Source: Haloglomus salinum
GTDB taxonomy: Archaea > Halobacteriota > Halobacteria > Halobacteriales > Haloarculaceae
Length of the DNA stretch: 64,000 nucleotides
NCBI RefSeq assembly: GCF_024298825.1
Contig: NZ_CP101153.1
Span: 1,860,001 to 1,924,000, forward strand
Reading direction: 5' to 3'
The notes beneath the pieces are model-generated. The model ran no database searches and was not told the DNA's origin. It worked only from the letters and a program-made list of their open reading frames with translations. Below, one piece after another: positions 79-30,852 of this stretch. The position numbers and the translations under genes are program-made. Each line of letters starts with the position of its first letter. Positions within the stretch are counted from its first letter, which is position 1.

Positions 79-570
79 TTAGCCCTCACTGGTCCCCCCG
101 AACTCCCCCAATTGGAGGACGTAGCGCACGGGAAGCGGAAGCGTGGGGCGCGGCGCATTCCGGTGGCGTCTGATGGACTCGGATTTCCGGGCTCGTTGCT
201 GAATTGCTCGCAACATCGGTACGCTGGCGAGGTAGCCCAGCTCTCCGAGAATAATCACTCCATACGTCGTTGGGCCGTAGAACCGACGTGGGGAGCCGGG
301 GTTCCACTTATCGGAATCATACGTGTACTCGGCTATGATGCCGTGTTCAACCAGCCTCTGGAGATGATATCCGACTACAGGCAGGGGATTACCGGGCAGG
401 AAGTGGGCTATCTCGGACTTGCTCGCCAGGGCGGCAGGGTGTCCGAGGATAGTCTGGATTATCAGGTAGCGATGCTCCTGAGAGAGAAATCTGGCAATCT
501 GAAACAAATACTGCACAGGGCCCAGTGTCGTGCCCTTCCGTGGAACTCCCGATCCATCACGCGGGGTCAC
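79..570 (-). CDS. ArsR-like winged-helix regulator
   Basis: A 163-aa protein and probable DNA-binding regulator. The GTG at 570 was chosen because it overlaps the stop of the upstream nuclease gene as GTGA, a 4-base overlap that suggests translational coupling. An ATG at 651 would overlap the nuclease by 85 bases. Residues about 20-95 read as a winged helix-turn-helix: a helix rich in Leu/Ile/Phe, then a recognition segment with HLQRLVEHGIIAEY and a following wing. The C-terminus is basic and contains no recognisable effector domain. As the last gene behind the Cas4-like nuclease it may regulate that operon. Family assignment is by pattern only. Confidence 0.65.
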   Translation of the reverse strand: MTPRDGSGVPRKGTTLGPVQYLFQIARFLSQEHRYLIIQTILGHPAALASKSEIAHFLPGNPLPVVGYHLQRLVEHGIIAEYTYDSDKWNPGSPRRFYGPTTYGVIILGELGYLASVPMLRAIQQRARKSESIRRHRNAPRPTLPLPVRYVLQLGEFGGTSEG

Positions 571-1703
571 GACTCTGGCTCGACCATGGGAACAGCCTGT
601 TTCTCGGGGGAGGGGCCGGTGAGCTCGGCTGGAATCTCCCTGTGTCTGCAATCAGGGCAGCTGGGGAGCTGGTCTACGTCCCCATCCCAGTCGACGGCCC
701 GCATGGTGTGCGAGGACCCACAGACCGAGCATCGCCAGTCGTAGCTCCCGTATTCCGATGCTAGCTCCGGAAACTCGTGTGCGAGCGTGGGGGTGAGCTT
801 CGCCGTCGGATGAGCCGCCAGATACGTCCTGATTTGCTCTCGCGGATAGTCCGCCACGAGTGGGAGCAACCCGGTTGGACCAGCGTCGGCATGCGGACCA
901 TCCCCCTTCCCGCAACGGCGTCGATATGGGCAGTACTGACACTCCCATTCGTATTCTGGCACGGCAGGTGGGAGCTCTTTCGACTGCCGGAACGCTGTAT
1001 TCTGTTCGGCCCACGGTAGCACCCGATCCTCCCAGAACGCGAGGTCGAAATCGACGTGGAACGTTCTGACCTCGAAGTCCTCACGGCTCGCGTAGAGAAC
1101 CACTGCTTCGCGGAGCTTGCAGTCGTACTTCTCCGATAGCCCGTACAGGTAACAGTGGACCTGAGCAAGGTGTTGCTCCTTCGGCTCTTGCAGGTGTGTG
1201 ACGGAGGACGTGGTCTTGATTTCGGTCAGGAGTAGCGGGGTGCTGTCTTCGTCAACCACAACTGGGTCGGTTTCGCCTCGGATTCGGAGGTCGTCCCCCT
1301 CGCGCCGAATCGTGAAGTCGACCCACATCGAGTTCCGCACGTACTCGTCTGTCCCGGTCTGGTCCCTGAGAAACGGAACGGCGATGTCCGTCTCGAACTT
1401 CGACCCGAACCAGAAGATTCCCTGCGGTGCGGCCGTCTCCTTGGGGGCATTGAATGTATCGTAGAAGCTCCGTCGATGACACCGGAGGAGGCGGCTGGGT
1501 GAGTGGCGACCGGACTCTGGAATCCGTGGCGGCCCGTTGAAGTAGGGTTTACCGTTCTCGATGTTCTGTCGCTGCTGTCGATTCTGATACCATCTGGAGA
1601 ACTCTCGACCAGTGACTCTGGCCGATCGAGGAGACCCGTTTTCGGCTGTCGTTTGCGGTTTCTGAGACGCTGGAGGCACGTCTGTGATTTCCGCCACGGC
1701 CAC
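567..1703 (-). CDS. Cas4/RecB-like PD-(D/E)XK nuclease with Fe-S cysteines
   Basis: A 378-aa predicted DNA exonuclease of the Cas4/Dna2/RecB type. Catalytic signatures are Asp146 (RGETDP), E161-I-K163 and the QxxxY motif at Gln181-Tyr185. A single Cys75 upstream plus C255, C258 and C264 match the split four-cysteine 4Fe-4S pattern of Cas4 and AddB nucleases. A C-terminal extension carries two further CxxC pairs (CSVC and CPDC), probably a zinc ribbon. No cas1, cas2 or CRISPR repeats are nearby, so a role in spacer acquisition is not supported. Stand-alone Cas4-like nucleases are common in defence islands. The GTG start at 1703 lies next to a palindrome; a second GTG sits two codons later. Confidence 0.8.
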   Translation of the reverse strand: MAVAEITDVPPASQKPQTTAENGSPRSARVTGREFSRWYQNRQQRQNIENGKPYFNGPPRIPESGRHSPSRLLRCHRRSFYDTFNAPKETAAPQGIFWFGSKFETDIAVPFLRDQTGTDEYVRNSMWVDFTIRREGDDLRIRGETDPVVVDEDSTPLLLTEIKTTSSVTHLQEPKEQHLAQVHCYLYGLSEKYDCKLREAVVLYASREDFEVRTFHVDFDLAFWEDRVLPWAEQNTAFRQSKELPPAVPEYEWECQYCPYRRRCGKGDGPHADAGPTGLLPLVADYPREQIRTYLAAHPTAKLTPTLAHEFPELASEYGSYDWRCSVCGSSHTMRAVDWDGDVDQLPSCPDCRHREIPAELTGPSPEKQAVPMVEPES

Positions 1704-2762: not shown

Positions 2763-5700
2763 ATGTCGGCGGAGTTCGATGTGGGGGACCAGGTATCGTT
2801 CTATGGGGGACGGGGAAGTGTCGTTGAGGTCATCAGAAATGGCCACAAGACGAAGCTGAGAGTATTGACCGACGAAGGGAAACTGCAGGAGGTTTCGCCT
2901 GATCAACCCCTGTTCCGTCGGGTAGAGGATGCGGAAGCGAATGAGATGGTCGACTTCCTCGGTGGGAAAGCGACTGTCATCGGCAGAGAGGAACGAGCAG
3001 ATGGGGCTGATTTGCTGTACCTTCGGACTGCCGAGGGAGATTTCAAGAAAGTCCCTGCCGATTCGAAAGGACTCCGCCCCGGTCGAACGATTGCTAATCG
3101 GCTCGCCGGTGGGGAATTCAATGACCCGACCCGGTTCAGCCTTCGTGAACGGGCCGCTCGGTTGAGCTTGGCATACGGCTCTGACCGGTTCCTCTCGCTC
3201 TCCGGGAGCCGTATTCGGATTGAGCCATACCAGGTTGACGCGGCTCATGAGGTCCTCACAGCCTACGAGCCGAGATATCTGATTGCCGATGAGGTCGGAC
3301 TCGGAAAGACCATCGAGGCAGGAATCATCATCGAGGAGCTACTTGCCCGGGGGAGAGCTGAACGGATCCTGATTATAACTCCGGCGTCGCTCCGGGACCA
3401 GTGGCAGGCAGAGATGCGCGAGAAGTTCGGTCGCGAGTATGTCGCGTATGACCGGGAGCTGGTGGATTCGCTTCGAAGAACGAATCGCGCCCAGAACGTC
3501 TGGATGGCTGAAGACCAGATTGTGGTCTCGATCGATTTCGCCAAACAGGACGATATGCTGGAGTCCCTCAGACGGCTGGATGCCCCCTGGGACGTGGTCG
3601 TATTCGATGAAGCGCACCACCTGACGGCCCGTGAGGGGAGCGACGGAATCAACCGGGCGGATCGATACCGGGTCGGTGAGGCCGTAGCGGGAAGCACTGA
3701 CGCGCTGCTGTTGCTGACCGGCACTCCCCACAAGGGGAAGCCCGACCAGTTCTACCACCTGCTCCGGCTTCTGGATCCCTATCGATTCAGGGGACCAGAG
3801 GATGTCCGTCCAGAGAAACTGGAGGATCTGATGATCCGGCGGACGAAGAGCGATGACAGTATGATCGACGCGGATGGCACGCCCATGTTCCCTCCTCGAG
3901 AGATACAGACGCTGGGTGTGAACCTCACGCCGGAAGAGCGACGACTCTACGACGACATAACGGAGTATATCTCGGCGGTTTACACGGCCAGTGCTGAATC
4001 AGATCGCCATGCTGCCGGGTTTACGATGGTGATCTACCAGAAACGACTGGTCTCCAGTATCCGGGCCATTCAGCAATCCCTGCAGAATCGGCTGGATGAT
4101 CTGGATACGAAGATATCCGTCGACGCTGCAGTGACAGATAACCTGAATTGCGTCGACGGGACTGTGGAAACGGAGTCCGACGTGCTGGAGCAGCTGATTG
4201 ATGCTGCTGGCGAAATCGGACTCGACTCGAAGGGACGCCGACTGCGGGAATTTCTCGGTGGAATTTTCGATGAGGACCCGGAGGAGAAGGTCCTCGTTTT
4301 CACCGAGTACACCGATACCCTGGAATACCTCAGGGACACGGTCCTGACGGACCTGACAATCGCCGAGATTCATGGCGGAATGGATCAGGAGACACGCCGC
4401 ACGGAGATGAAGCGGTTCGAGGAAGACTGCCAGGTCATGCTTGCGACGGACGCAGCACGCGAGGGGCTGAACCTGCAGTTCGCGCACATCATGGTGAACT
4501 ACGACCTGCCCTGGAACCCCATCCGTATCGACCAGCGGATGGGTCGGCTCCACCGCTATGGGCAGGACGAGAAAGTCCGGATCTACAACCTCTTCATCCG
4601 AGACACACGGGAGAGTGATATTCTCGACCTTCTCGTGACCAAGCTCCAGCAGATCGAGTCGGATACTGGAATGCATTCCGACGTACTCGGCACTGTCCTT
4701 GACGACTACGACGTGGAGGGGGCAATCATGGATGCAGTCACGGGAACGCGGAGCTCGGACGAGGTCAAGGCCGATATCGAAAGCGCCATCGATGAACGAA
4801 AAGAGGCGGTCGAGCGGATAGAGAACGAGTTCCTGATCCGGGACAAGTTCGACCAGGATTCCCTCGAAGAGATACAGGAACTGATCGACCTGAGCGAGAC
4901 ACGTCCGATAGGGGAAGATGACATCGAACAACTCGTCCGCCAGTTCGTCTCGGAGTTCGGCGGTGAGGTACGGAACTCTACTCCCGGTCCCGCCCCTGCA
5001 GAACATCCCCTGTATTCGATCTCGGTCCCGGAGATCCTGTCGATGAATGGGAAGGTACGTGACCAGTATAGCCGCGTCACCTTCTCCCGGGGGACGGCAC
5101 TGGAACGTCCAGAGGCCGAGCTGATTTCGCTAAACCACCCGCTTGTGCAGCAAATCGTCGAGTACTGTCTCGATGGGGACTGGATCGATGGCCAGGTTGC
5201 AGCACTGGTGACGGCAGATTCCGACTCCGCTCCGGGGATTCTCGCAACGTACCGACTCGGATACGTCAGCGGCGATGGGGAGCTACCTACAGAGGATTAC
5301 GTCCGGGTCTATGTCACCGCCGAAGGGGAAGTAATGGAAACACCGCCCCGGATTGCGGGGACACTTCCTCCTGCCGTCGCAACTGCACATCCACAGTCGT
5401 ACGCACTCGCGGAAGAGACGGATTCTCTGCTCGACGTGACTGAATCGAGGGCCCGCGAACGGGTCGAGGAACTCGCAGAGGGTGTTCAAGAGGAACGGCA
5501 GAAGGATGTCGATATCAAGGAACGGCACGCACGCCGCTATTTCGAGCAGAAGATCCGGGAGCAGGAAGACCGGCTCAGGGAATACGAGATCGAAGAGACG
5601 GATACGGACAAGGACATGACGATCGCCATCAGGGGCGCACGGAGCAAACTGGAGGAACTCGAGGAAGAGTGGGAGGCAGAGCAGGAGCGTCTCGAGCGCG

Positions 5701-6293
5701 AGCGGATGGTGATTCCAGACGAACCCGAGTTGATCAACGCTGCCGTCGTCACCAGCAGGATTCCGGCTGTCTCGGAGGCAGTTATGCTCGACGGAACTGG
5801 CGATGATTTCTCTGCTGTCGCGGATGCGATGGATATCGAACAGCCCGACGAGGCGGACTCGCGACTGTCCTTCGTGGAGAGCTACGCAGCTCTCGAATCT
5901 GTCAGTGACCTCGGCTCTGCGGCGCGACTATTCCGGGCAGGCGAAGCACCGGATACATCTGGCTTCACGTATCGGCAGTTCGGTGAAGAAGAAATCGGAC
6001 TCCTGGGAGACACTGATCTATCGAACGAGGATGTCGTGGACGCTGCAGACGGACTCAGGGGGCTGATAGCCGAGTTCAATCAGAGTCCATCTATTCAGCC
6101 CTGTCTTGTTCGCGGAGCCGTGGACGCCTTCTCTCAGGACGGCCAGCTGTTCGTGAACCTCGAAGCCTGGGAGCAACAGCCGCGCCGGTACTGGATTACT
6201 GTACTGGCCCGTGAGATTGCCACAATGCGTTCGCAGGGGGGCCCAGAGCAGCTTTACCAGCGGACGCTCGAAACGATACGAGAGGCAGTCTAG
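2763..6293 (+). CDS. SNF2-family helicase, DrmD-like (copy 1)
   Basis: A 1176-aa Swi2/Snf2 ATPase, predicted double-strand DNA translocase. Two small barrel-like segments come first, each built around a GDxVxFxGGxGxV pattern (about residues 6-25 and 59-80). The RecA-like core follows: DEVGLGKT Walker A (176-183), DEAHH Walker B (282-286) and LLTGTPHKGKP. The second lobe has a VFTEYTDTLEYL block, ATDAAREGLNLQ and QRMGRLHRYGQ. The last third is charged and partly coiled-coil, then a compact C-terminal domain. Large SNF2 proteins of this type are DrmD in class 1 DISARM. It is clearly paralogous to the protein encoded at 10890-13823. Its stop shares a CTAG palindrome with the stop of the convergent methyltransferase gene. 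Confidence 0.85.
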   Translation: MSAEFDVGDQVSFYGGRGSVVEVIRNGHKTKLRVLTDEGKLQEVSPDQPLFRRVEDAEANEMVDFLGGKATVIGREERADGADLLYLRTAEGDFKKVPADSKGLRPGRTIANRLAGGEFNDPTRFSLRERAARLSLAYGSDRFLSLSGSRIRIEPYQVDAAHEVLTAYEPRYLIADEVGLGKTIEAGIIIEELLARGRAERILIITPASLRDQWQAEMREKFGREYVAYDRELVDSLRRTNRAQNVWMAEDQIVVSIDFAKQDDMLESLRRLDAPWDVVVFDEAHHLTAREGSDGINRADRYRVGEAVAGSTDALLLLTGTPHKGKPDQFYHLLRLLDPYRFRGPEDVRPEKLEDLMIRRTKSDDSMIDADGTPMFPPREIQTLGVNLTPEERRLYDDITEYISAVYTASAESDRHAAGFTMVIYQKRLVSSIRAIQQSLQNRLDDLDTKISVDAAVTDNLNCVDGTVETESDVLEQLIDAAGEIGLDSKGRRLREFLGGIFDEDPEEKVLVFTEYTDTLEYLRDTVLTDLTIAEIHGGMDQETRRTEMKRFEEDCQVMLATDAAREGLNLQFAHIMVNYDLPWNPIRIDQRMGRLHRYGQDEKVRIYNLFIRDTRESDILDLLVTKLQQIESDTGMHSDVLGTVLDDYDVEGAIMDAVTGTRSSDEVKADIESAIDERKEAVERIENEFLIRDKFDQDSLEEIQELIDLSETRPIGEDDIEQLVRQFVSEFGGEVRNSTPGPAPAEHPLYSISVPEILSMNGKVRDQYSRVTFSRGTALERPEAELISLNHPLVQQIVEYCLDGDWIDGQVAALVTADSDSAPGILATYRLGYVSGDGELPTEDYVRVYVTAEGEVMETPPRIAGTLPPAVATAHPQSYALAEETDSLLDVTESRARERVEELAEGVQEERQKDVDIKERHARRYFEQKIREQEDRLREYEIEETDTDKDMTIAIRGARSKLEELEEEWEAEQERLERERMVIPDEPELINAAVVTSRIPAVSEAVMLDGTGDDFSAVADAMDIEQPDEADSRLSFVESYAALESVSDLGSAARLFRAGEAPDTSGFTYRQFGEEEIGLLGDTDLSNEDVVDAADGLRGLIAEFNQSPSIQPCLVRGAVDAFSQDGQLFVNLEAWEQQPRRYWITVLAREIATMRSQGGPEQLYQRTLETIREAV

Positions 6294-7585
6294 CTGGCTT
6301 CGAGCGCCTCCCGTATCGCGAGCCCCACGGCTTCGGCGAGAAGCGGTGGAACAGCATTTCCGACCTGTCGGTACGCGGCAGTTCGACTGACGGGGAACAC
6401 GAAACGGTCAGGGAACGACTGGAGCCGCGCGGCCTCTCGAACGGTGAACGACCGAGCCTCGTGGGGATGGATGTGCATGTGGCCATCCTTGTGGATATGC
6501 GCGGGTATCGTCGATGAGGGACGGTCCGCCTGTTGCTTTGTGTAGTTGTCAGCGAACACGTCCTCCCGATAGGGCTGGAGCTCGTCCTGCAGGTCGCCGA
6601 TACGCCACCCGGTCCCGGCTCCAAGGAGCGAGTAGATCGACAAGTCAGTGAGATTGTGGAACCGGGCTTCGTGATTGTGGAGCACCGGTCGCTCGCCGTC
6701 GTCCGTCGCCGCAGCCGGTGCGTCCTCACGGGCCCAGAGCTGATACTCTGTCACGGGTGGGAGTTCGTAGCGATCGGTCGCGGCGGGCGGGTGCGGATCG
6801 TCGGCCCGGGTCCCGGCAGGGGAAAGTGGCGGCAGGTCAGAGATCGCCTCGGCGACGGTGACCCAGGGCTCACGCGACCGGGGCTTCGAACTCGCGTTCT
6901 CCTCTGGGTCATCAACCCACCTGTCCAGTGTCTCCTGTGGCTGTTCGTGCTCCGGATTCGAAGTGAGGCGGGCCTCTCGTTCTTCCTCCGTAGCTGGCTC
7001 ACGATGGGAGCGCCATTCCTCGATTTTCGGTGGCCGTCTGCCGTTCTTCGTCCCGATTATCAGCAGACGCTTTCGGTGCTGTGGAACGCCGTAATCTGCG
7101 GCATCTACTACCCGCGGTCTGACCCTGTAACCCAGGCTACTGAACTGTCCACAGATATGCTCGAGAACAGACTCGCCAGCTTCGTTGGTAGCCGAGGACA
7201 TCCCCTCGACGTTCTCCATGAGAAATGCGGATGGCTCGTATTTATCAACGGCGTCCCGGAGCCGCTCCCAGAGCTGTGTTCGACTGTCGGTGGTGGCATC
7301 ACGGCCCTCCAGCGAGTTCAGTTTCGAGCGTCCGACCACAGAAAACGGAGGGCAGGGTGGGCCGCCCGCCACCAGGTCGATTCCGGTCTCGAACTCGGGG
7401 AGCGTATAACCCGAGAGGTCCGCCGTCGTGCAGTCGACATCAGGGTGATTCTCCCGATACGTTTCCACCGCTGCTTCGTCGTTATCTACTGCCCACTCGA
7501 CCTCGAACCCGGCCCATTCGAGTCCGGTAGAGAGACCCCCAGCTCCGCAGAACAGATCGATCGCAGAGAGCGAATCAGCCGCCAT
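6290..7585 (-). CDS. C5-cytosine DNA methyltransferase (DrmMII-like)
   Basis: A 431-aa Dcm-type enzyme transferring methyl from SAM to cytosine C5. It shows motif I DLFCGAGG (residues 10-17), catalytic Cys78 in GGPPCPPFS, motif VI MENVEG (Glu124) and QHRKRLLIIG of motif VIII. Motif IX/X is QSFPDRF with RQVGNAVPP near the end. The variable region between motifs VIII and IX is long and holds the target recognition domain. The ATG at 7585 was preferred to the one at 7612 because nothing conserved precedes it. It lies 45 bases downstream of a second C5 methyltransferase gene, so both are probably co-transcribed. It overlaps the SNF2 gene tail to tail by four bases. Confidence 0.9.
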   Translation of the reverse strand: MAADSLSAIDLFCGAGGLSTGLEWAGFEVEWAVDNDEAAVETYRENHPDVDCTTADLSGYTLPEFETGIDLVAGGPPCPPFSVVGRSKLNSLEGRDATTDSRTQLWERLRDAVDKYEPSAFLMENVEGMSSATNEAGESVLEHICGQFSSLGYRVRPRVVDAADYGVPQHRKRLLIIGTKNGRRPPKIEEWRSHREPATEEEREARLTSNPEHEQPQETLDRWVDDPEENASSKPRSREPWVTVAEAISDLPPLSPAGTRADDPHPPAATDRYELPPVTEYQLWAREDAPAAATDDGERPVLHNHEARFHNLTDLSIYSLLGAGTGWRIGDLQDELQPYREDVFADNYTKQQADRPSSTIPAHIHKDGHMHIHPHEARSFTVREAARLQSFPDRFVFPVSRTAAYRQVGNAVPPLLAEAVGLAIREALEAS

Positions 7586-7630
7586 ACCGGTACTGCTGGC
7601 GCCAGCAGTCAAGAAGTTTGAGAACTGCGG

Positions 7631-9877
7631 TCAGTCGTCAGTGCTCGCGACGGCTGCCTCCGTGGCTTCCGTTTCGAGCCCCGGAGCATCAGTGAGGTAC
7701 TCACCGAGGATCGAGGCGATCCGTTCCCCGAGCAGAGGGGGGACTGCGTTGCCGATCTGGCGGAACTGACTGGTGAACGGGCCAAGGAAGACGTACGAAT
7801 CAGGGAACGACTGGAGACGGGCAGCCTCACGGGGAGTTATTCCGCGACTCCGGCTGCTATCCTGTTTCGACTCATCAGGTCGGGCGTACTCGTAGTAGTC
7901 GGGAAGGATGAAGCTGTTCCCATCCTTGGCCAGATGCGCAACGATGGTCGGTGAGGGCTGATCCCAGTGGAGCATCCGGTACTTGTCCTTGAATGCCGGG
8001 TTCTCCTCTGTCCCGACGTTGTACTCGATGAGATGGCCGTAATCCGTTCTGTACTTCACGTCCCAGCCGGTATCTCCTGGTTCCATCACCTCGCTGAACA
8101 GCTTCCGGTCTTTCTCCATCGGGTGTTCGCGAGCCCGGTGGTTGTACGTCAGCCGCGTCCCGCCAGCCAGCTCGTTGTCTCGAACGTAATCACTGGCCCG
8201 GCCAGGAGCCCGTCCAGCCACGACACCGCCCCCCTCTCCTCTCCGCAGTCGAGGGAGATTAGAAAGGGCCTGCTGGATCGTTGTCTCTGGCGTTTCCGCC
8301 GGGGACATGTCATCGAAGAACCCCTCCACATGTCCTTCGGGGTCGGGGACGGCATCCTCGCGCGTGCCGAACAGCACTACACGGTCGCGGTATTGCGGTA
8401 TTCCGAACGTCGAACAGTCGAGGAGCTGGTGGTCGGTAGTATACCCCATCTCGGACAGTGCTGCCTCGACATCGTCGATGACACGCCGCTCGCTGTCTCC
8501 CAGCGAACTCAGAATCCCCTCGACGTTCTCCATGATGATGTACCGTGGTTCGAGCGTTTCGAGTAGAGAGACGTAGTGCTGGTAGAGCCGGGTCCGTGGG
8601 TCCTCCAGTACGCTGTACGAATCGTCGTCTGCCAGTCGCGACCGATAGCCGGCGACGGAGAGGGCCTGGCATGGGGGGCCACCAACGACGACATCGACCT
8701 CCGGAGCGAGGTCCTCAATCTGTCCCGGGTCTTCTGCAATGTTGCCGATGTCTTCGCACCGGATCTGTCGGTGGGGGATCTCGGGGTGGTTGAGCCGATA
8801 CGTATCCGTCGCGTCCTGTTCCTGGTCGATCGCGAGGGCCACGTCGAATTCGGGCGCACCGACTCCTCGCGTGAACCCATGTGAGAGGCCTCCAGCTCCA
8901 CAGAACAGATCGACGACGGTCAGGGTCTCCTCATTCCCACTCGCTGCCTGTTCGTGGATACGGTGAGAGAGCGTGAACTGTCGCAGTTCGCAGTCGGCAG
9001 TCGAGTGGTCGCCGGAGCAGTAGTGTGCGTGGGCGGCAAGCGCTCGATGGAGGGGCGGAATCTGTCGATCAGTGAGCTCCTCCTCGAGCTCGTGATGCCG
9101 ACCGCTCCCGGATACATCAGCCGGGTCGAGTAGCCCGAGCTCGGCGAGGAGTCCATCGACGCCATCGGCCGCGGGCCAGACGGGCTTGTCGAACGCAGTC
9201 AGAAGTAGCCACCATGCCTCCGGATCATCTACCCCGGGCAGCCCAGCGAGCATCTCGTGCAGATACTCGTAGGAGACCGAGGGGAGGTCAGTGAGCGTCG
9301 TGCCCTCTGTGTAGCGGTGCTCGTCGATAGCCGCGAGCGCTTCCTGTAGCCGGCTCACGGCCGTATCATCCAGCACACGCCCCCCCTGCGATTCGCGGGC
9401 CGCGCGCTGGAGCCGATCACGCCCGGCAGACGCGATATCGCTCCAGGAACCAACCCGCTCCCGAAGGGCACCAATCAGGTTCCGTTCGTCCCGTGCGAAG
9501 TAGTGTTCGACGACCGAGTCGCTGTTCGAGATCACGACAGCTGCGACGGCGTCGAGCGGGTCGTCGCTGCCGTGGAGTGGGTCACCACAGGCGCAGGCCG
9601 CCCCATCCCGGTCTTCCGATGGTGTCCAGATGCGCTCGTAACAGCACGGGTAGGAACCGTCGTCCTTGCTCCGAGAGCGGGCGAGCATGACCGGTGTCGA
9701 GTCGGGACAGGCGCACGGAACACTCCACTGTCGCTGTTGCTGTTCTGCGGCAAGCGTGTCTGTCAGGAATCTAATGTGACGTAGCAGGAACTCGCGGTGT
9801 TCCGTTCGCTCGCTGTCTGGGCAGTCGGCTACCGCCGGTAGCCGGCCACCTGGTTCTTGACAGCCGTGGTCACTCAT
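7631..9877 (-). CDS. C5-cytosine methyltransferase fused to an EndoIII-like N-terminal domain
   Basis: A 748-aa fusion protein. Residues about 55-100 are Cys-rich (CAC, PCC, CAC clusters). Residues about 165-300 read like the second half of an EndoIII/HhH-GPD glycosylase: LPGV hairpin (213-216), a LLLTAF helix, an Asp in the PAADGVD position, and a late Cys/His segment. The catalytic Lys position is replaced and only part of the Fe-S cysteine pattern remains, so the domain may bind rather than cut DNA. From residue 321 a full Dcm methyltransferase follows: DLFCGAGG, catalytic Cys403 in GGPPCQALS, MENVEG, and RQIGNAVPP at the end. The start at 9877 is chosen over GTG at 9925. The methyltransferase call is firm; the EndoIII-like call is by pattern. 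Confidence 0.85.
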   Translation of the reverse strand: MSDHGCQEPGGRLPAVADCPDSERTEHREFLLRHIRFLTDTLAAEQQQRQWSVPCACPDSTPVMLARSRSKDDGSYPCCYERIWTPSEDRDGAACACGDPLHGSDDPLDAVAAVVISNSDSVVEHYFARDERNLIGALRERVGSWSDIASAGRDRLQRAARESQGGRVLDDTAVSRLQEALAAIDEHRYTEGTTLTDLPSVSYEYLHEMLAGLPGVDDPEAWWLLLTAFDKPVWPAADGVDGLLAELGLLDPADVSGSGRHHELEEELTDRQIPPLHRALAAHAHYCSGDHSTADCELRQFTLSHRIHEQAASGNEETLTVVDLFCGAGGLSHGFTRGVGAPEFDVALAIDQEQDATDTYRLNHPEIPHRQIRCEDIGNIAEDPGQIEDLAPEVDVVVGGPPCQALSVAGYRSRLADDDSYSVLEDPRTRLYQHYVSLLETLEPRYIIMENVEGILSSLGDSERRVIDDVEAALSEMGYTTDHQLLDCSTFGIPQYRDRVVLFGTREDAVPDPEGHVEGFFDDMSPAETPETTIQQALSNLPRLRRGEGGGVVAGRAPGRASDYVRDNELAGGTRLTYNHRAREHPMEKDRKLFSEVMEPGDTGWDVKYRTDYGHLIEYNVGTEENPAFKDKYRMLHWDQPSPTIVAHLAKDGNSFILPDYYEYARPDESKQDSSRSRGITPREAARLQSFPDSYVFLGPFTSQFRQIGNAVPPLLGERIASILGEYLTDAPGLETEATEAAVASTDD

Positions 9878-10070
9878 GACATCCTCCGTACAGGATGCGA
9901 CCCTCCCTCGCGGCCGGCACAGCACCTTCAGGCGACGGAGTCATGACGACCATCTACACCCTGTTGATAACTGGCTAGAATAAAACATTTATGCCACATC
10001 TGCTGCCCCGCAAGGGGGATAGTGATATTGCCGTGCGGTACCTGCTAGATCCCAGAGGTGTCAGTTCGGG

Positions 10071-10862
10071 ATGCCAGATGATACCGGGAGCGTCGATCTT
10101 CCCTTCGGCCGGACCACGGCGACTGCGGCTGAGCTCGCCCAGCAGGCGGACCAGAAAACCGCCTGCTCACTGCTCGCGGAGAACGGCACCCCCGACCCCA
10201 CGAGACGGCTTTCGCTGTTCTTCCAGCAGGTACCTGAACTGCTCCAGTGGCTGGAGGCAAACGGGCGCCACTTCCCCTGGCGGAACACAACCGATCCGTG
10301 GAGGGTCTACCTCTCCGAAATCCTGCTCCAGCGGACCCGTGCAGAGGCGGTCAATGAGCTGTATGGATCGTTCTTCGAGCAGTTTCCCCACCCGGAAGCG
10401 CTCCATCAGGCTTCTGACGAGGAGATTCATAGCCTTATCCAGACCCTGGGGTTCGGGAATCAGCGGACGAGGACGCTGAACGAGGTTGCCGAACTCGTCG
10501 TCACTGAACACGGCGGAGAGGTTCCCCAGTCACTCGAGGAGCTCCAGCGACCATGGCGGGTGGGTCCATACTCCGCCCGGGCGACGATGCTCTTCGCGTA
10601 CGGGGAACCGCTCGCCCTGGTCGACACTAACTTCGCCCGGGTCACCGAGCGTGTGTTCGGCTACGAGATGCCCACGCAGCCACACAAGAGCGACGAGGTC
10701 TACCAGCTACTGGATGCTCTCGTCCCCGCCGAGCCCGCCCTGTGTCGGAGCGTCAATCTGGCACTGCTGGATCTGGCTGATGCGATCTGTACGCCATCGG
10801 AACCCCGGTGTGATGTCTGTCCGCTCGCCGAAGGCTGCCTGTACGCTTCTCCCGGTGAGTAG
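10071..10862 (+). CDS. EndoIII/MutY-superfamily DNA glycosylase, Mig-like
   Basis: A 263-aa HhH-GPD glycosylase with a 4Fe-4S cluster. It has PWRNTTDPWRVYLSEILLQRT near residue 70 (conserved Glu83), hairpin VGPYSARA with Tyr167 at the position of the EndoIII catalytic Lys, and general-base Asp185 in LVDTNFARV. The cysteine set is C240-x6-C247-x2-C250-x5-C256. Tyr at that position is a feature of the thymine glycosylase Mig.Mth and of some MutY proteins. Mig.Mth is encoded beside a 5mC restriction-modification system and repairs T:G mismatches left by 5mC deamination. Here the gene sits next to two 5mC methyltransferase genes, which favours the Mig role; A/G-specific MutY is the alternative. 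It is convergent with the SNF2 gene 27 bases away. Confidence 0.8.
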   Translation: MPDDTGSVDLPFGRTTATAAELAQQADQKTACSLLAENGTPDPTRRLSLFFQQVPELLQWLEANGRHFPWRNTTDPWRVYLSEILLQRTRAEAVNELYGSFFEQFPHPEALHQASDEEIHSLIQTLGFGNQRTRTLNEVAELVVTEHGGEVPQSLEELQRPWRVGPYSARATMLFAYGEPLALVDTNFARVTERVFGYEMPTQPHKSDEVYQLLDALVPAEPALCRSVNLALLDLADAICTPSEPRCDVCPLAEGCLYASPGE

Positions 10863-10889: not shown

Positions 10890-13823
10890 TTACATCCCGA
10901 TAACGACCGCGGCGTTGACCAGTTCGGGTTCCTCCGGAACGACGACCTCCTCCTCTTCCAGACGCGAGAGCTCCGCTTCCCGCTCGCTACGGAGATCAGC
11001 AAGCTTCCGTTCGGTCTGGTTAACTAGGACCTGCACGTCCTCTTCGGGGTCGCTCGCACGCTGCCTGTATCGCTCGAGTCGTTCCTCCTGCTCCTCGATC
11101 CGGCTCTCGAAGTAGCGCCGTGCATGCTTGCGCTTGATCTCGATCTCGCGAGAGCGCTCCGACTGGGCCTCCTCTGCGAGCTCGTTGACGCGCTCCCAGG
11201 CCTCTGTCTCTGCAACCTCGATGAGGTCGTCTGCTACCTCTGAAACGGTTGCAACCTCCTCGAATCCGGGTGCATCACCGGGCGGAATCCCTCCAACGAT
11301 TTCCGGATTCTCGGTTATTGTTCCATCTGGCTGCACGTAGATCTGGGCGAGCCGTTCGGTGACCGTATCGCCACGCCCCGACTGGTATCCAAGCCGGTAG
11401 TTGCAGAGCAGTCCCGGAGTCGGTGTCTCCTCCGACCCGACCCTCACAGCCGTCTGGCCGCCGACTGCGTCAGCTCTGAGACAGAACTCGACGATGTTCT
11501 GGACCAGTGGGTGGTCGAGGGCGAGGAACGTCAGCTCGTCGTCCTCCTGTGCGAGGTCCCGAGAGAAGGTCGCCCGATCGTACCTGCTCTCGACCTCGCC
11601 GCCGTCGATGACATCCGGTACGATCAGCTGGAACACGTCGCCGCCCTCGCGTGCTGGTCCCGGATGTGTTCCCCTGATCTCGCCATCGAAGAGGTCGAAG
11701 AAGCTCCGGACGAGTGTCTCGATATCTGTCTCGCTAACCTGCTCGGTGCGGGATTCCTCGATTACATCGAGGATTTCGCGGTCCTCCGCACTGAGGTCGA
11801 ACCGGTCGCGGATCAGGAAGTCCTCCTCTATTCGCCTGATTGCATCCTCGTGTTCCTCGACGGTCTCGTCGACCATCTCGGCGAACTGCTCGACGGACTG
11901 GTCCTTCGCGATGGCCGTCATGATCTGGTTCTCGAGGTCGAACTCGTCGAGTACCATCCCCAGCACGTCAGAGCTCATCCCCAGCGTCGACTCGATCTCC
12001 TCGACCTTCTCCATCAGCACCTCGAGAATGTCGCTCTCGCGGGTGTCGCTGACGAACAGGTTCCGTATCTCGACGGTGTGTTCCTGTCCATAGCGGTGGA
12101 GTCGGCCGATCCGCTGGTCGATACGGATGGGGTTCCAGGGCAGGTCGTAGTTCACCATGATGTGCGCGAACTGCAGGTTCAGCCCCTCGCGTGCTGCGTC
12201 CGTCGCAAGCATGATGTTCGCCTCGTCACGGAACTTCTCGAGTTCGCGCCGGCGCTGGTCCTGGCTCAGATCGCCGTATATCTGCGCGACATCGTGATTG
12301 CTGAAGACCCGCTCCCGCAGGTACTCGAGGGTGTCTGTGTACTCGGTGAAGATGAGCACCTTCTCGTCGGGGTCCTCCCCCAGCACGCCGTCGACGAACT
12401 CGCGGAGCCGCTCCGCCTTCGAGTCGGTCTGGATGCTCTTCGCCTGGTTGTATAGGTCCCGGACGATGTCCAGCTCCTGTTCGATGGCTCCGCCGCCCTG
12501 CCCCAGCGTCACTTCGCCGAGCTCCTCCTCGACGCGCTCGCGCTGTGCGTCCGTGAGCATCTCGGGGTCCGTACGGTACTGGTCCAAGAGACTCTTCACG
12601 AGACTCGAGAGGTCGTCCGGGTCCTTCCCGCCGCTCTTGAGCGTCTCGAGTCGCTTCTTCAGCGACTTCCGGATGGCGTAGATGCTGGAGACCAGTCGTT
12701 TCTGGTAGATCGCCATCGCGAACCCGACGGCGTTGTTGTCCTCCCGCTCGGCGAGGTTATAGTGCTCGCTGATGTAGTCCGTGACGTTGTCGTAGAGGGC
12801 GCGCTCCTCGTCAGTGAAACTCACGGGGAGCGTCTCGATGTTCTTCTCGGGGAACATGCGCGAGCCGTCGGGCTCGTACATGTCCTCCTTCAACCGTCGG
12901 ATCATCAGGTCATCGAGCGCGTCGGGGGTGATGTCGTGCTCGTCCCGGAACCGGTAGGGGGCGAGCAGGTCCATCATGAAGTAGAACTGGTCTGCCTTCC
13001 CCTTGTGTGGCGTCCCCGTCAGGAACAGCAGCCCCTCGGAGTTTCGTGCAACTGCCTTGCCGACCCGGTACCGTTCGGTCGTCTCCTTCGTGTTGTTTCC
13101 TTTCCGTCGGGCGGTCAGGTGGTGGGACTCGTCGAACACCGCGATGTCCCACTCCTGCTCGAGGTTCTGGAGGGCTGCAAGCAGGTCGTCTTGCTTGGCG
13201 AAGTCGATGGAGGTGATGATGCGGTCGTCGTGGGTCCAGACGTTCTCGTTCGGGTGGGCCTTCCGTTTCGCCTCGACGTAGCCACGGTCGTAGATCTGGT
13301 AGTCGCGGTCGAACTTGTCGCGCATCTCCTCCTGCCACTGGACCGTCAGTGGTGCCGGCGTGACGATGAGCACACGGTCGGCACGCCCGCGAGCGATGAG
13401 TTCCTCGATGACGATGGCGGCCTCGATGGTCTTCCCGAGCCCTACCTCGTCGCCGATGAGATAGCGATGGTCGAGCGAGTTGAGAACCTCGTAGGCGGCC
13501 TGGACCTGGTAGGGCTCGATGTCGATACGGCTGCCCGTGAGCGCGACGAAGCGATCCTGCCGGTGGGCGAGCCCGAGCTCGGCGGCCTTCAGCCGGAGGT
13601 CGAACCGTTCGGGGCTATCGAACTCGCCCTTGCCGAGGAGGTCCACTCCGGTATCGAGCTTCTCGATGTTCATCGAGCTCGGGCGCTTCTCGAGTCCGTC
13701 CTCGGTATGGATGTGGAGCAGACATGGGCCCGTCTCCCGGTGGTCTATTTTGGAAATCTCACCCTGTCCCCCGGCGAACGAGACCATATCGCTGACCTCG
13801 AACCCGCAATCGCAGTCGGTCAC
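10890..13823 (-). CDS. SNF2-family helicase, DrmD-like (copy 2)
   Basis: A 977-aa Swi2/Snf2 ATPase paralogous along most of its length to the copy at 2763-6293 but about 200 residues shorter. It has one N-terminal barrel (VSFAGGQGEISKI) instead of two, Walker A DEVGLGKT at 125-132, a DESHH Walker B, LTGTPHKGKADQF, and a second lobe with ATDAAREGLNLQ and QRIGRLHRYGQ. The C-terminal part shares the acidic DLFDGEIRGTHPGPA region and the long charged coiled coil. It ends soon after the PEEPELVNAAVV block, whereas copy 1 continues into another domain. Two different DrmD-like motors in one island is unusual and suggests either two systems or divided labour. Confidence 0.85.
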   Translation of the reverse strand: MTDCDCGFEVSDMVSFAGGQGEISKIDHRETGPCLLHIHTEDGLEKRPSSMNIEKLDTGVDLLGKGEFDSPERFDLRLKAAELGLAHRQDRFVALTGSRIDIEPYQVQAAYEVLNSLDHRYLIGDEVGLGKTIEAAIVIEELIARGRADRVLIVTPAPLTVQWQEEMRDKFDRDYQIYDRGYVEAKRKAHPNENVWTHDDRIITSIDFAKQDDLLAALQNLEQEWDIAVFDESHHLTARRKGNNTKETTERYRVGKAVARNSEGLLFLTGTPHKGKADQFYFMMDLLAPYRFRDEHDITPDALDDLMIRRLKEDMYEPDGSRMFPEKNIETLPVSFTDEERALYDNVTDYISEHYNLAEREDNNAVGFAMAIYQKRLVSSIYAIRKSLKKRLETLKSGGKDPDDLSSLVKSLLDQYRTDPEMLTDAQRERVEEELGEVTLGQGGGAIEQELDIVRDLYNQAKSIQTDSKAERLREFVDGVLGEDPDEKVLIFTEYTDTLEYLRERVFSNHDVAQIYGDLSQDQRRRELEKFRDEANIMLATDAAREGLNLQFAHIMVNYDLPWNPIRIDQRIGRLHRYGQEHTVEIRNLFVSDTRESDILEVLMEKVEEIESTLGMSSDVLGMVLDEFDLENQIMTAIAKDQSVEQFAEMVDETVEEHEDAIRRIEEDFLIRDRFDLSAEDREILDVIEESRTEQVSETDIETLVRSFFDLFDGEIRGTHPGPAREGGDVFQLIVPDVIDGGEVESRYDRATFSRDLAQEDDELTFLALDHPLVQNIVEFCLRADAVGGQTAVRVGSEETPTPGLLCNYRLGYQSGRGDTVTERLAQIYVQPDGTITENPEIVGGIPPGDAPGFEEVATVSEVADDLIEVAETEAWERVNELAEEAQSERSREIEIKRKHARRYFESRIEEQEERLERYRQRASDPEEDVQVLVNQTERKLADLRSEREAELSRLEEEEVVVPEEPELVNAAVVIGM

Positions 13824-14818: not shown

Positions 14819-14900
14819 CCTGGGCTGGCCACTTGCCTGGTCCCGCAGTGTCGCTCGGCAATGCCACCATTGAATACCCGGCAGTGTGTCGATCAGTCGC

Positions 14901-15947
14901 ATGGGTAGGGCATACCGGGTCGGAGAGACCTACCGCGACACCGGGAGTTACAGGAAGAGCGAGGACCAGTTCCTGCGCTGGATTCGTGGCCCGCTCGACA
15001 GCGGCATCAGGAACACGGGCGGAATCAGGGATATCGGCGCGGACCACTCGGACTCGCCAGCCGCCCTCGTCCTCGTCTCCAACGACAAGGGAGTCTCCCA
15101 GCACGACGACCCGTGGGAGGACACGCTTGCCGTGGATTCCGGGTACATCAGCTACTGGGGCGACGCCAAGGAGGGCAACCCGTACGACGACTCCGACCAG
15201 AACGACAAGGTAGTCGACGCGTTCGACCGGGCTGCGGCCGGCCGCCGCGAGGAGGTTCCGCCGGTGCTCGTGTTCCGGAAGCCGGAGTCCGGCGTGGTCC
15301 AGTTCTGCGGGCTGTGTGTCCCGGACTATCTCGAGGCCCGGCCCTACAGGGATGATGACGGCAACCGGGTGCCGAACTACCTGTTCCACTTCACGATTCT
15401 GAACACGCCGGAGGTCCCGGTCGAGTGGCTCCACTCCAGAGCCCGGGGCGGCAGCAACGAGGCCGCGCCCGACGAGTGGGAGACCTGGACCCGGACGGGC
15501 GAGGTGCACCAGTGGCCGACAGGAGTCCAGCGCGAGCAGAACGAGGGGTGGGTCCGCCGGTACGAACAGGCCGAGATTCCTGTCAGCGAGGACTTCCGGC
15601 AGGAGGCATTCGAACGGTACGGGCGAGCCTGCGTGATCACTGATATCCGCGAGGAGCCAGTGCTCGACCTCGCTCACGTCCTCCCGCGGAGCGAGCGTCC
15701 GGACCTGGCCGAGCACTCGGAGAATGTCCTCGTTCTGAACTCGCTCCATCACCGGGCGTTCGACGCGGATCTGTTCACTATCGACCCCGAAATGCGGTTG
15801 CGCGTTAGCCCCGCGTTCGACCCGGGACATCCGTTCCTCCGGGAGACGATCGTCGAGCGGGAAGGTGAGGAGGTCCGGCTGCCGCCCGATGCCAGCGTGC
15901 GAGGGGAGTTCCTTGAGGAATTGAATGGGAGCCTGTCCTGGGTATAG
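14901..15947 (+). CDS. HNH endonuclease with a possible modified-DNA-reading N-terminus
   Basis: A 348-aa protein. Residues about 230-290 form an HNH nuclease: CVIT-DI, then DLAHVLPRSERPD, NVLVLNSLHHRAFD and a DLFTIDP strand. This is the arrangement seen in McrA-type and other restriction HNH enzymes. The N-terminal 200 residues contain YISYWGDAKEGNPYDD and PVLVFRKPE-GVVQFCGLCVPD. The YWGDA block recalls N-terminal recognition domains of modification-dependent enzymes (AspBHI or ScoMcrA type), but this is a resemblance, not a demonstrated match. Start ATG 14901 is preferred to GTG 14886, with a weak TTGAATA box about 28 bases upstream. It could cut modified phage DNA or unmodified DNA; the sequence cannot decide. 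Confidence 0.7.
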   Translation: MGRAYRVGETYRDTGSYRKSEDQFLRWIRGPLDSGIRNTGGIRDIGADHSDSPAALVLVSNDKGVSQHDDPWEDTLAVDSGYISYWGDAKEGNPYDDSDQNDKVVDAFDRAAAGRREEVPPVLVFRKPESGVVQFCGLCVPDYLEARPYRDDDGNRVPNYLFHFTILNTPEVPVEWLHSRARGGSNEAAPDEWETWTRTGEVHQWPTGVQREQNEGWVRRYEQAEIPVSEDFRQEAFERYGRACVITDIREEPVLDLAHVLPRSERPDLAEHSENVLVLNSLHHRAFDADLFTIDPEMRLRVSPAFDPGHPFLRETIVEREGEEVRLPPDASVRGEFLEELNGSLSWV

Positions 15948-16945: not shown

Positions 16946-19900
16946 TCAGTCATCTCGAACTGCTGACTCGACAATTTCAATTTCCTCGTCGGTCAATTTG
17001 TAGAGGTCGTAAACAATCTCATTGATTAGCTGGTCGATTTTCTCGATTTTCTCATCCAGATCGTCAGCGCGCTCACGCACCTTGATATACTGCTCCAGTC
17101 CAGTTTGAACCTCACCGATGTCAGGGAGTGTCAGGTCTTTCAGCCGGTCCAGCGGTGAGTTCGTCTTAGTCGCGCCCTGCCGGAAGCCCGCGAATCCGTC
17201 GTCTTCCTCAATGGCGACAGGCACGAACTCTCGCAATAGCGTCTCCTCAGCCTCCGATAGACCGACAAAGGCCATCGCCTCGTAGGTCTCGAACTCCGAT
17301 TCGGCGAGACGGTTCCAGCGGTCTGTCTCGCGTGGGTCTTCCTCGTCGATCTTGTAGCTCAGGCTCACCGACAGCACCAGTCGTCCCCCCTCGTCTGCGA
17401 AGGATACCCCCTCTATACGCAATCCTTCATACTCATCCGTAGTCTTAGTCAGCGGCGTGTCTGCGACGCCCGCTACCGGCATCTGTAAGTCTTCGAGCGT
17501 TTCGCCTGCCTTCGCCTGCGGCAGTTCGTCACTTGGGATTCCGAGATAGTCGAGGAGCGCGAGATTAAGACCGGATTTGTCTTCGGTCTCTTCGGACCGA
17601 ATTCGGGCAAGTATCGCCAACAAATCATGCAATACAACGTCGTGTACTTCTCTTTGCTTAATTTTGCTTATAACATCCCCGACGGAACGTGCTTCTCTTA
17701 TCTCTTCTTCCAACTCGGCTACTAATTCGGACCTTTCGTTCGGCTCACCGTCGAAGTTAATTGCCCGAATCGGGAGGTCACGAAGCTCGTGGATTCGAAC
17801 CTGTGCGAAGGTCCGATCCTCCTCGCCTGACCGGGAGCGGTACACATACCGAAGGACCGCACTGTTAATTAGTGCAAGAACATACCAGAGGTCATACCGC
17901 TCATCGTTGAGTAGAGTCGTATGTACTGACTTGGCGGTGTATAGCTCGTTGGTATCGATTGCTCCGATGAGTGTCTCTGCCGTTTGTCTCGTGAGTAATT
18001 TCTCGGATACCTCGGTGTACTCGGGATACACCTGAATGACAATATCGCCCTCGACGAACGAGTCATAGTCGTGACGCAGCCACTTGTTCTCCGGTTCGAT
18101 ACGGTATCGCTCGATTTCACCACCACCAACGTAGCGGTGATCCTCCTCGTTTTCCTGTTCACCCTCATACATGATGAGATCAGAGATCTTCGTCCCCTCA
18201 CCTCGATTCTGCCAGCCTTGTCCACTTACTTTATAATCGATACCGGCATCGTGACAGGTACATATCGACGGCTCAAGCTCGACTATCTCATCTAACTCAG
18301 TAATTTTCCCCTCGACCCGATCGACAACACGCCATGGCTGTGAAGCTCGTGCCTCTATGGGAATAGAGTATCCTTCATCAGAAATCTCTGCTTCGTCTCC
18401 CTCGACGAGCGTAGCGTTATAATTTTCAGATGGACGCATGTTAGATGCGGTGAGTATCATCGTGAATATCTCCTCGTTGAATACATGATGCTCACCAAAA
18501 TCCACAATCTCCTCTATCGAATATCGCTGGGAGTTTACTCGACGAAATGCCTCGTACTGCTTTCCTTTCAGCGGAGTATTTGGTATGATATAGCTCCATG
18601 TGCCAGCCGCTCTCAGGATTCGGTCAGGAAGCGCAACGAATGCAGTGAAGATATCGGCACGTTCGCTCTCGAATCCCATCCCTTGAGCTCGACAGTATTT
18701 TTTCGCCCGCGTATCGAGAATATCCCCGTACGGTGGGTTCCCGAGTACCACATCAAATCCACCATGATCCTGTCGATCTCCATCCTGCTCGTAGAACGCT
18801 ATCGGGAACTCCAGTTCCCAGTGGAAGAATTGCTGGTCTTTGGCCATCGCCTCCGCCGACTGATACCAATCATATCTTTCGATTTTCTCCCAAGAGTCAT
18901 CCCGCAGGGCCTCTGCCATGCGTTCGTAGGCATCAGCGGGCACGTCCAGCCCGAACCGCTCGGCGGTATGGACGTTCGCCATGGCAATGAGGTGCTGATA
19001 AAGTGGGTCGTCGCGTACCTCGTCGTAGACGGTCTCCATCTCCTTGATGTCGTCCAGTGTCTCGTTGTCGATAGCGAGCAGGTCCTCGAACTGGTTGGTG
19101 ACGTGCTCTAAGGCCTGCCGCCGCGTGCGGTCGAACGACTCTTGCAAGGTTAGCTGACCTTCTTCGGTCCCGTTGTCAGGGTCGCCGTTGTCAAGCACCG
19201 TCTCAATGTCGCTGCCAACCAGCGAGTTCCCCGTCTTGAGATGATGGTCGAGGAAGGCAAGCGGTTGCTCGGCGGCGAGCGTCCGAAGCCATAGCGACAC
19301 CTTCGCCAGTTCGACCGCCAGCGGATTCAGGTCCACGCCGTAGATGCAGCGCTGCGCGACCTGCCGGCGGGCCCAGTTGATGTCGTGTTCCTCGTCGACG
19401 GTTTCGATACCCTGCTGGGCGGCCTGCCGCTCCTGAGCGTCGATAATTTCACGGGCGAGGTAGTCGATAGCGCTCGTCAGGAAGTGGCCGCTGCCCATGG
19501 CGGGGTCCAGGATTTTGAGGTCGAACACCTCCTCAGCGAACTCCTCAGCGAATCCTCCTTCGTCGAACGCACTTTGGCCAACGAGACTCCCCCGGATGTC
19601 GTCGACAATCGGTCCGAGCGTTTCCTCGACGATGTACTCGACGACGTACTCCGGAGTGTAGTACGACCCTGTCGCCTTCCGTTCGCCAGAGTCAGTGGTC
19701 AAGTATACATCGCCCTCGTTCACCACGACTTCGGAGTCACTGTCGGCACTCACGTACTCGCCGGCCTCCACGGCCTTCGGCTCGTGTGCGACGTTCAGCT
19801 GGTATTCGAGCAACCCCTCGTAGATGCTACCCAGATGACGGATGTCCAGCGAGGAGTAATCCACGAAGACCTTGCCGTCACCCTCGTCCGCTTCGCGGCG

Positions 19901-21106: not shown

Positions 21107-21270
21107 GAGCGGAGGTCCCCCACGCCCGGGCGCCGTCCGGCGGCCCTGGTGGATACCGACCCCCAGAGACGACTCGCACATAACAGTTGCCAACGGGTCA
21201 GGCACACGCGTGCGAGCACGCACGTGGGTGCGTACGCGCTACGCGCGCCCACGTGTGCCCAGTTCTATAC

Positions 21271-29916: not shown

Positions 29917-30852
29917 ATGGCTATGCCCGACGACATCTCTCGCTTTGACCGGGCACTCGCGATTGCAGACATTCTGGACCATGACGAGCACCTGGTTCAG
30001 GAAGTCGAGGGGCATCTGCTGGTGGCTGCAGGCCGGTCAGAAACCATCTCTCCTGCCATAATTGCTCGTGAAACATCCCTCGAACGAGAAGAGGCAAGCG
30101 ACCTGTTCAGACAACTTGATGAACAGGGTGCTGTCCTGCGAGATTCGTATCAAGCGCCGGTGGTGGAGACGAACTACCGTGTCCGGGCCAGCTCGGTACG
30201 TGCAGCATTTGACACCGTTCGAAACGCTGTTGCAACCATAGCTGCGTACCAGGATCGAGTTCCCCGGGCAGAGGTAACTCCTCTGGTGACTTTCCCAGAT
30301 GACCCCTCGTTCGATGCCACTACGCCGGCTGAATTCGGGATGGAGGGGCTGATGTCGACCCTCGTGTCGGCAGTAAAAGATTCGTCCGAGGAAATCGTGC
30401 TCCTGTCTCCGTTTTTCGAGCAGACCGGTTTCGGCCGCCTCGCAGACGTCCTGCTTGATGCCCTCGGGCGGGGGGTGGAACTGACAGTCGTGACACGATA
30501 TCTCGGTGACTCATCATCGCACAACCACTCTGTCATTCAGGATTTTGTGACCCGGGCTCGCGAGCGTGGGGTCGCCAAGGGGCTCAAGACGGTCGATTAT
30601 ACTGTCTGGGCCGATGATGTCCCCGCGAGTGACCGGAATCAGGAGGGAGAGAATCCAGCCTTCACTCTGCACGCCAAGGTGATGGTGTTCGACCGAACGT
30701 CTGCGTACGTCGGCAGTGCTAACGTCACTGATTACGGATTTGGGAGGTATCTGGAACTCGGAGTCCTCCTCGGGGGGCCTCCAGTAAAACAGGTTTCGGA
30801 GCTCTGCAACTTTCTGCTGGAATCCGATGCAGCGACGACTGTCTCTCTGTGA
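29917..30852 (+). CDS. drmC: DrmC-like phospholipase-D-fold nuclease
   Basis: A 311-aa protein. Residues 1-75 resemble a winged-helix segment. The C-terminal half has one clear PLD motif, H252-x-K254-x4-D259, followed by SAYVGSANVTDYGFGRYLELGVL. A preceding IVLLSPFFEQTGFGRL strand-helix is typical of the first half of PLD nucleases. One HKD motif per chain implies a dimeric active site, as in bacterial Nuc and BfiI. It begins 46 bases after drmB on the same strand, and DrmC closes DISARM operons in the same way. In tested DISARM systems drmC was reported as not strictly required. Confidence 0.85.
   Translation: MAMPDDISRFDRALAIADILDHDEHLVQEVEGHLLVAAGRSETISPAIIARETSLEREEASDLFRQLDEQGAVLRDSYQAPVVETNYRVRASSVRAAFDTVRNAVATIAAYQDRVPRAEVTPLVTFPDDPSFDATTPAEFGMEGLMSTLVSAVKDSSEEIVLLSPFFEQTGFGRLADVLLDALGRGVELTVVTRYLGDSSSHNHSVIQDFVTRARERGVAKGLKTVDYTVWADDVPASDRNQEGENPAFTLHAKVMVFDRTSAYVGSANVTDYGFGRYLELGVLLGGPPVKQVSELCNFLLESDAATTVSL

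Follow-up and report, generated by a model that had tools for sequence, protein, structure and literature searches.

The window analysed in the present study, i.e., the whole stretch of 64,000 nucleotides from Haloglomus salinum (contig NZ_CP101153.1, positions 1,860,001 to 1,924,000), carries on its forward strand (10071-10862) an intact open reading frame that starts with ATG, contains no internal stop and encodes a protein of 263 aa (P0001), which the reading frame, the Pfam match, the alignment and the structure model together mark as a probable Mig-type HhH-GPD DNA glycosylase. HhH-GPD (PF00730, E 7.9e-20) is the sole Pfam domain found in it. Aligned with Mig.Mth, the thymine/uracil-DNA glycosylase of plasmid pFV1 (PDB 1kea), P0001 has F68, R71, E83, R88, A91, Y167, D185 and L230 at its pocket and catalytic positions, all eight identical to the Mig.Mth residues F27, R30, E42, R47, Ala50, Y126, D144 and L187. 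The Fe-S cluster cysteines are C240, C247, C250 and C256, and the chain ends 7 residues beyond the last of them, without the 8-oxoG-reading C-terminal domain of MutY. The hairpin of the HhH motif reads PWRVG, versus LPGVG. The N-terminal extension, residues 1-50 (10071-10220, forward strand), is specific to the family, carries a conserved PFGRT-like motif and lacks a counterpart in Mig.Mth; it might contact the partner methyltransferase.

The gene lies between two SNF2 helicase genes (2763-6293, forward strand, and 10890-13823, reverse strand), which profile matches describe as DrmD/BrxHII-like and which differ from those of DISARM in that their best PADLOC score is BrxHII. Two cytosine-5 methyltransferase genes on the reverse strand, which the initial annotation had already read as neighbouring 5mC writers, were recovered: MT1 (6290-7612, 440 aa, PF00145 at 7.4e-69), DrmMII-like with a PADLOC score of 291 bits, and MT2 (7631-9925, PF00145 at 2.9e-57), with a long N-terminal extension and a length of 764 aa if it starts at a GTG or 748 aa if, like several of its homologues, it starts at the ATG at 9877. 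A PF00145 match was found nowhere else in the genome, a single contig of 4.19 Mb. If MT2 starts at the ATG at 9877, the divergent intergenic region between the glycosylase and this fusion methyltransferase spans 9878-10070, and it probably holds the promoters of both genes.

The surroundings are those of a defence island, with a DISARM set that is complete by PADLOC (drmA, drmB, drmC and methyltransferase). On the forward strand stand the genes for the DrmA helicase (24081-27902, 502 bits), DrmB (27909-29870, 179 bits) and the PLD nuclease DrmC (29917-30852, 51 bits), and on the reverse strand that for a DrmMI-like adenine methyltransferase (16946-21223, 335 bits). Directly before drmA, a 916-aa protein without Pfam or PADLOC match (21327-24077, forward strand), whose N-terminal part looks GHKL-ATPase-like by eye, is co-conserved with DrmA and/or MT2 at five further loci (L097, L099, L149, L156 and L162). 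The island also holds an extra TATA-binding protein gene (PF00352; 16356-16889, reverse strand), whose relatives in L148 and L155 lie close to DrmMI-like genes, and a gene for a protein resembling methyl-directed restriction enzymes, with an AspBHI-N domain and an HNH nuclease (14886-15947, forward strand; relatives in L108 and L153). Elsewhere in the window is a Cas4-like PD-(D/E)XK protein gene (567-1703, reverse strand), with homologues also near MT2 in L150 and L153. The island is thus like DISARM in its drmA, drmB, drmC, drmMI, drmD-like and drmMII-like genes, and goes beyond it with the Mig-type glycosylase and a second 5mC methyltransferase bearing a glycosylase-fold domain. In PMC9142583, the Serratia DISARM is given one 5mC and one adenine methyltransferase, and the ATPase activity of DrmAB is reported to be lower on 5mC-DNA.

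The substrate pocket offers the closest view of what P0001 may do. According to PMC2714593, Ala50 together with Leu187 sets the preference of Mig for T/G over A/G, the double exchange A50V/L187Q is reported to shift Mig to A:G, and F27, R47, E42 and Y126 are further pocket residues; R30 was assigned to the pocket by us from a remark on Q25R in that paper. Across the 18 intact members of the P0001 family, R30, E42, R47, Y126, D144 and the four cluster cysteines (Mig numbering) are invariant, position 187 is Leu in 15 and Phe in 3, and position 27 is Tyr in 15 and Phe in 3. At position 50 we counted Gly in 11, Ala in 4 and Ser in 3, so that the family keeps a small residue there, mostly not the Ala of Mig. 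The MutY references carry V, I or L at position 50 and Q, S or N at 187, and the Val45- and Gln182-type adenine determinants of MutY are absent from P0001, which has A91 and L230 instead.

It had also been claimed that Tyr167 occupies the place of the catalytic Lys of EndoIII and marks the protein as Mig-like. The alignment bears out the first part, since Tyr167 falls on Mig Tyr126, MutY Ser120 and EndoIII Lys120, the catalytic Lys of EndoIII being absent from P0001. The second part did not survive: Tyr is also found at this position in the MutY of the same genome (L129), in another haloarchaeal MutY (L138) and in bacterial MutYs (L140-L142), and, according to PMC2714593, in Bacillus MutY as well. 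Because housekeeping MutYs share it, Tyr167 is not diagnostic of Mig, and we rejected it as proof of Mig identity.

Whole-protein comparisons lean in the same direction as the pocket. Among PDB sequences, the best match of P0001 is Mig.Mth (1kea) at 139 bits, MutY reaching 118 and EndoIII 83, and P0001 scores far below the cut-off of the NCBIfam mutY equivalog model (160.8 bits versus 286.5) and below that of the nth (EndoIII) model (78.3 versus 211.7). Its AlphaFold model (pLDDT 89.8) finds 1kea as the closest solved structure, at Z 24.9 and an rmsd of 1.9 across 215 residues; the best MutY follows at Z 22.5 and EndoIII at Z 21.6, and Foldseek agreed with this. No UDG-type chain was among the matches listed in the structure search, which does not in itself speak against such a fold. 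Identity to Mig.Mth in the structural alignment is 34%. A tree of 67 rows, without resolution in its backbone, shows the P0001 family as one clade (100/100) and MutY as another (99/99); with 39 rows, MutY stands as its own clade (100/98) with P0001 outside, and three lineages join at 93/90, namely the P0001 family, a second haloarchaeal group, and Mig.Mth together with relatives from Caldicellulosiruptor and Thermus. Two constrained placements of the family were rejected, one among haloarchaeal MutYs (p 0.019) and one among those of bacteria (p 0.008); joining it to MutY as a whole (p 0.08) or to EndoIII (p 0.14) was not rejected. A common branch of the P0001 family and Mig.Mth is therefore likely from these sequence comparisons, the support of 93/90 being moderate and not firm: nesting within MutY fails, while descent with Mig.Mth stays short of proven. 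The phylogenetic comparison with Mig.Mth, MutY and EndoIII that had been called for at the outset accordingly speaks against placement in housekeeping MutY (p 0.008-0.019). The genome in fact encodes a separate housekeeping MutY of 397 aa, and with this gene, the pocket residues and the nesting tests at hand we rejected the identification of P0001 as that enzyme. Among the best 20 of 31 phage records, identity to P0001 reached at most 37%.

The P0001 family was found in 22 of the 391 sampled genomes of the class, at 48-74% identity over the matched stretch, and below it a sharp gap leads down to the next group at about 40%, a distribution by which the reading frame is more than a chance one. 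Members from the same order include Natrinema and Natronobeatus. Eighteen copies are intact and four are broken or partial (L034 of Natrinema gari, L035 of Natrinema pallidum, L106 and L108). As for the neighbourhood, 17 of the 18 intact copies lie head-to-head with a PF00145 5mC methyltransferase gene, the starts ranging from a 34 bp overlap to 377 bp apart (by longest ORF), and the one exception (L091) has methyltransferases about 15 kb off and none adjoining. This family-wide layout upholds the link to 5mC first proposed from the window. The head-to-head partner is MT2 in 8 cases, the window included, MT1 in 8 and a divergent methyltransferase in 1 (L107), with MT1 additionally standing behind MT2 in the window and in L090. 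For 8 of the 18 genomes a PF00145 search returned a single gene, in each case the head-to-head neighbour.

The restriction machinery around the pair varies. DISARM drmABC lies near 10 of the 18 intact loci and was not found near the other 8, several of which have restriction-endonuclease-like neighbours: often the gene next to MT1 codes for a protein whose EcoRII-C match is weak and below the cut-off, some loci also have a BsaWI-like protein above the cut-off, and L107 has an XcyI-like protein below it. One fixed restriction system as the partner of the glycosylase was consequently rejected, the gene being found with MT1, MT2 or a divergent methyltransferase, with or without DISARM; since both partner methyltransferases and restriction systems differ, the constant element is the 5mC writer, and not a particular system or target site. 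The protein with the weak EcoRII-C match (357 aa beside MT1, L098:13392-14465 and its relatives, 11 loci) probably serves the MT1 system as its cognate restriction enzyme, judging from its sequence and position.

Similar company is kept outside the family. Of the 9 loci of the second haloarchaeal Mig-like group, 7 have a 5mC methyltransferase at a distance of up to about 10 kb; the same search gave 0 of 11 for the controls, namely a third haloarchaeal glycosylase family (10 loci) and one MutY. A cytosine methyltransferase stands close to mig itself on pFV1 and close to the Mig-like genes on plasmids of Caldicellulosiruptor, Thermus, Halomicrobium, Haloplanus, Halorubrum and Halobaculum; near the Mig-like gene on a Gloeothece plasmid, none is annotated. 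The third family, again of HhH type (L110, L112, L115, L119, L121, L123, L124, L126, L127 and L128, with the match near 9.6-10.7 kb), has Tyr at position 126 and mostly His at 187, and a 5mC methyltransferase was found nearby in 0 of its 10 loci.

Looking from the side of the methyltransferases, we searched the 391 class genomes with thresholds of >700 bits for MT2 and >390 bits for MT1. MT2 homologues occur in 21 genomes, 12 of them with the glycosylase, and MT1 homologues in 20, 11 of them with it, and partial MT1 matches were seen in 10 more genomes, all of which are also MT2 genomes. Either methyltransferase is present in 33 genomes, the glycosylase accompanies it in 20 of these, and 20 of the 22 glycosylase genomes have an MT1 or MT2 homologue, although the genomes are related, so that neither the counts given here nor the p-values computed on them are independent; in one of the two remaining genomes (G329), a divergent 5mC methyltransferase adjoins the gene. 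The other 13 of the 33 methyltransferase genomes are without a member of the P0001 family, and a search of them gave matches at the level of MutY and EndoIII, with a Mig-like one only in G191. In G261, a glycosylase remnant of about 60 residues persists beside MT2, and in L161 a weak glycosylase fragment sits at the divergent position. The absence from these 13 genomes, together with the 4 broken or partial copies among 22, tells us that the glycosylase gene is dispensable, and its decay while the methyltransferase stays is natural for a repair accessory and awkward for an essential partner. Vsr (PF03852), the bacterial enzyme for T:G mismatches from 5mC deamination, was found in 0 of 31 genomes searched, the own genome included, while the controls matched in 5 of 14, and PF03852 is not among the Pfam matches of P0001.

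Taking all of this together, we consider with good but not full confidence that P0001 is a Mig-type, Fe-S-containing monofunctional thymine (probably also uracil) DNA glycosylase that acts as a general guard of 5mC sites, the activity on T:G being inferred. In this proposal, the restriction/DISARM island would know self DNA by the 5mC that MT1 and MT2 write, this 5mC would deaminate spontaneously to T opposite G, and P0001 would flip out the T and cleave its N-glycosidic bond by means of Asp185, with Tyr167 and the small, hydrophobic pocket of Ala91 and Leu230 accepting thymine, after which ordinary base excision repair would restore the C. A shared divergent promoter may keep P0001 and the methyltransferase under common regulation. 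Being paired with at least 3 different methyltransferases, P0001, like Mig, does not appear tied to one recognition sequence. The Mig-like specificity suggested by the initial annotation thus draws support from the eight matching pocket residues, from 1kea as the structure closest to the model and from the rejected nesting in MutY, as far as sequence and modelling can speak for an activity.

The place of the gene in a defence island with DISARM genes spontaneously raises the thought that P0001 could instead be a defence effector, a restriction glycosylase acting on bases of incoming DNA from which the methyltransferases protect the host. Antiviral and restriction glycosylases do exist in prokaryotes according to PMC11078745 and PMC10273834, the model cases being Brig1, which acts on modified T4 bases, and PabI-type enzymes, which act on unmethylated sites. 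Nevertheless, we regard such a role as unlikely: the restriction machinery varies, with drmABC at hardly more than half of the intact loci, MT2 and DISARM persist where the glycosylase has been lost or broken, the pocket is identical to the one in an established T:G repair enzyme, and Brig1 belongs, according to PMC11078745, to the uracil-glycosylase superfamily, whereas the only Pfam match of P0001 is HhH-GPD. Somewhat more doubtful still is an extra MutY-like glycosylase for A:G or A:8-oxoG that merely hitch-hikes in the island. In sequence and fold, MutY comes next after Mig.Mth, a sister relation to it was not rejected (p 0.08), and Tyr occurs in MutY too; but the adenine determinants are missing, 263 aa leave no C-terminal domain of the MutY kind in a genome that already has its 397-aa MutY, nesting in MutY was rejected, and the pairing with 5mC methyltransferases would go unexplained.

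The least probable reading, to which we give hardly any credit, is that P0001 excises 5mC as such or takes part in erasing the self mark. It does pair with 5mC writers, and the 5mC glycosylase ROS1 shares its fold (Z 16.5, row 47 in the structure search), yet the active site is of the monofunctional type with Lys absent, nothing in the pocket points to cytosine specificity, and with an eraser encoded together with the writer of the self mark the host would fall prey to its own restriction. Each of these three explanations is less likely than Mig-type repair.

Repair of the Mig type also places P0001 among known systems. It resembles Mig.Mth as an HhH-GPD Fe-S protein without the C-terminal MutY domain, in the eight compared pocket residues and in a gene neighbourhood with a cytosine methyltransferase and its restriction enzyme, and differs from it in sequence (34% identity), in the 50 extra N-terminal residues and the PWRVG hairpin, in lying head-to-head with the methyltransferase, in having DISARM at about half of its loci and in belonging to a salt-loving and not a heat-loving lineage. 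With MutY it shares the superfamily fold, the Fe-S cluster, the catalytic Asp and often the Tyr, but not the substrate-pocket residues, the length, the C-terminal domain or the position in the tree. By analogy, its role in vivo would be that of Vsr for Dcm in bacteria, the proposed mending of T:G from 5mC deamination beside a 5mC methyltransferase. Vsr, however, has no homology with P0001, and it nicks DNA, while P0001 would act by base excision.

The N-terminus of MT2 adds another glycosylase fold to the locus. Its region 9116-9571 (reverse strand) is EndoIII-like (HhH-GPD) by hhalign, NCBIfam and Foldseek on a low-confidence model: hhalign gave 96.8% (E 2.4e-10) against the EndoIII profile, 59.7% against MutY and 30.1% against the Mig-type profile, versus 0.3% for the methyltransferase domain of MT2 as negative control, and the NCBIfam glycosylase model NF053634 matched at 1.4e-5. 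Pfam did not detect an HhH-GPD-like domain in MT2, and a direct PDB sequence search with the N-terminal domain returned nothing significant. Foldseek listed EndoIII and OGG1 in its first rows (best E 6.7e-3), which lends weak support because the AlphaFold model behind it has a pLDDT of 48.4 and was built from two sequences. The fusion of such a domain to a cytosine-5 methyltransferase is conserved in 21 of the 391 class genomes. None of these 21 family members has Lys or Tyr at the EndoIII Lys position, and 17 retain the catalytic Asp, which is replaced by Ala in the window copy; a working glycosylase is unlikely here, and the region is probably, by its sequence, a glycosylase-fold domain that is non-catalytic in the window copy and perhaps serves as a DNA reader. 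No relative of MT2 was found in viral contigs, and the MT2-type domain was found in 3 plasmid records, all from haloarchaea and in every case within a gene annotated as a cytosine methyltransferase. It is tempting to imagine a write-and-proofread pair, in which the MT2 domain reads T:G mismatches or the abasic sites left by P0001 at MT2 sites and brings about immediate re-methylation, so that DISARM never meets an unmarked self site after deamination. We hold this scenario for speculative and rather improbable; if true, a methyltransferase with a built-in mismatch reader would work beside a dedicated thymine glycosylase encoded head-to-head with it.

The association of mig with a 5mC restriction system is already known. 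What appears to be new, so far as our literature search shows, is a separate family in haloarchaea that has an N-terminal extension of its own, the link of such a glycosylase to both DISARM and type II-like systems, the head-to-head layout throughout the family and the glycosylase-fold domain on the neighbouring methyltransferase; in the titles and visible abstracts of the papers covered, mostly from outside subscription journals, we found no report of a glycosylase of this kind in haloarchaea or DISARM, nor of a glycosylase-methyltransferase fusion. Self marks made of 5mC are mutagenic, and a probable thymine glycosylase is kept beside their writers across swaps of methyltransferase and restriction system. 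Mig-type repair would then be an archaeal counterpart of Vsr in a lineage where Vsr was not found, and would extend from the plasmids of heat-loving organisms to the chromosomes of salt-loving ones and to DISARM. It predicts C-to-T hot spots at the methyltransferase sites wherever the glycosylase gene has been deleted or has decayed. As a minor observation, the AspBHI-N and HNH gene of the island stands beside two 5mC writers, an apparent conflict unless its product reads another context.
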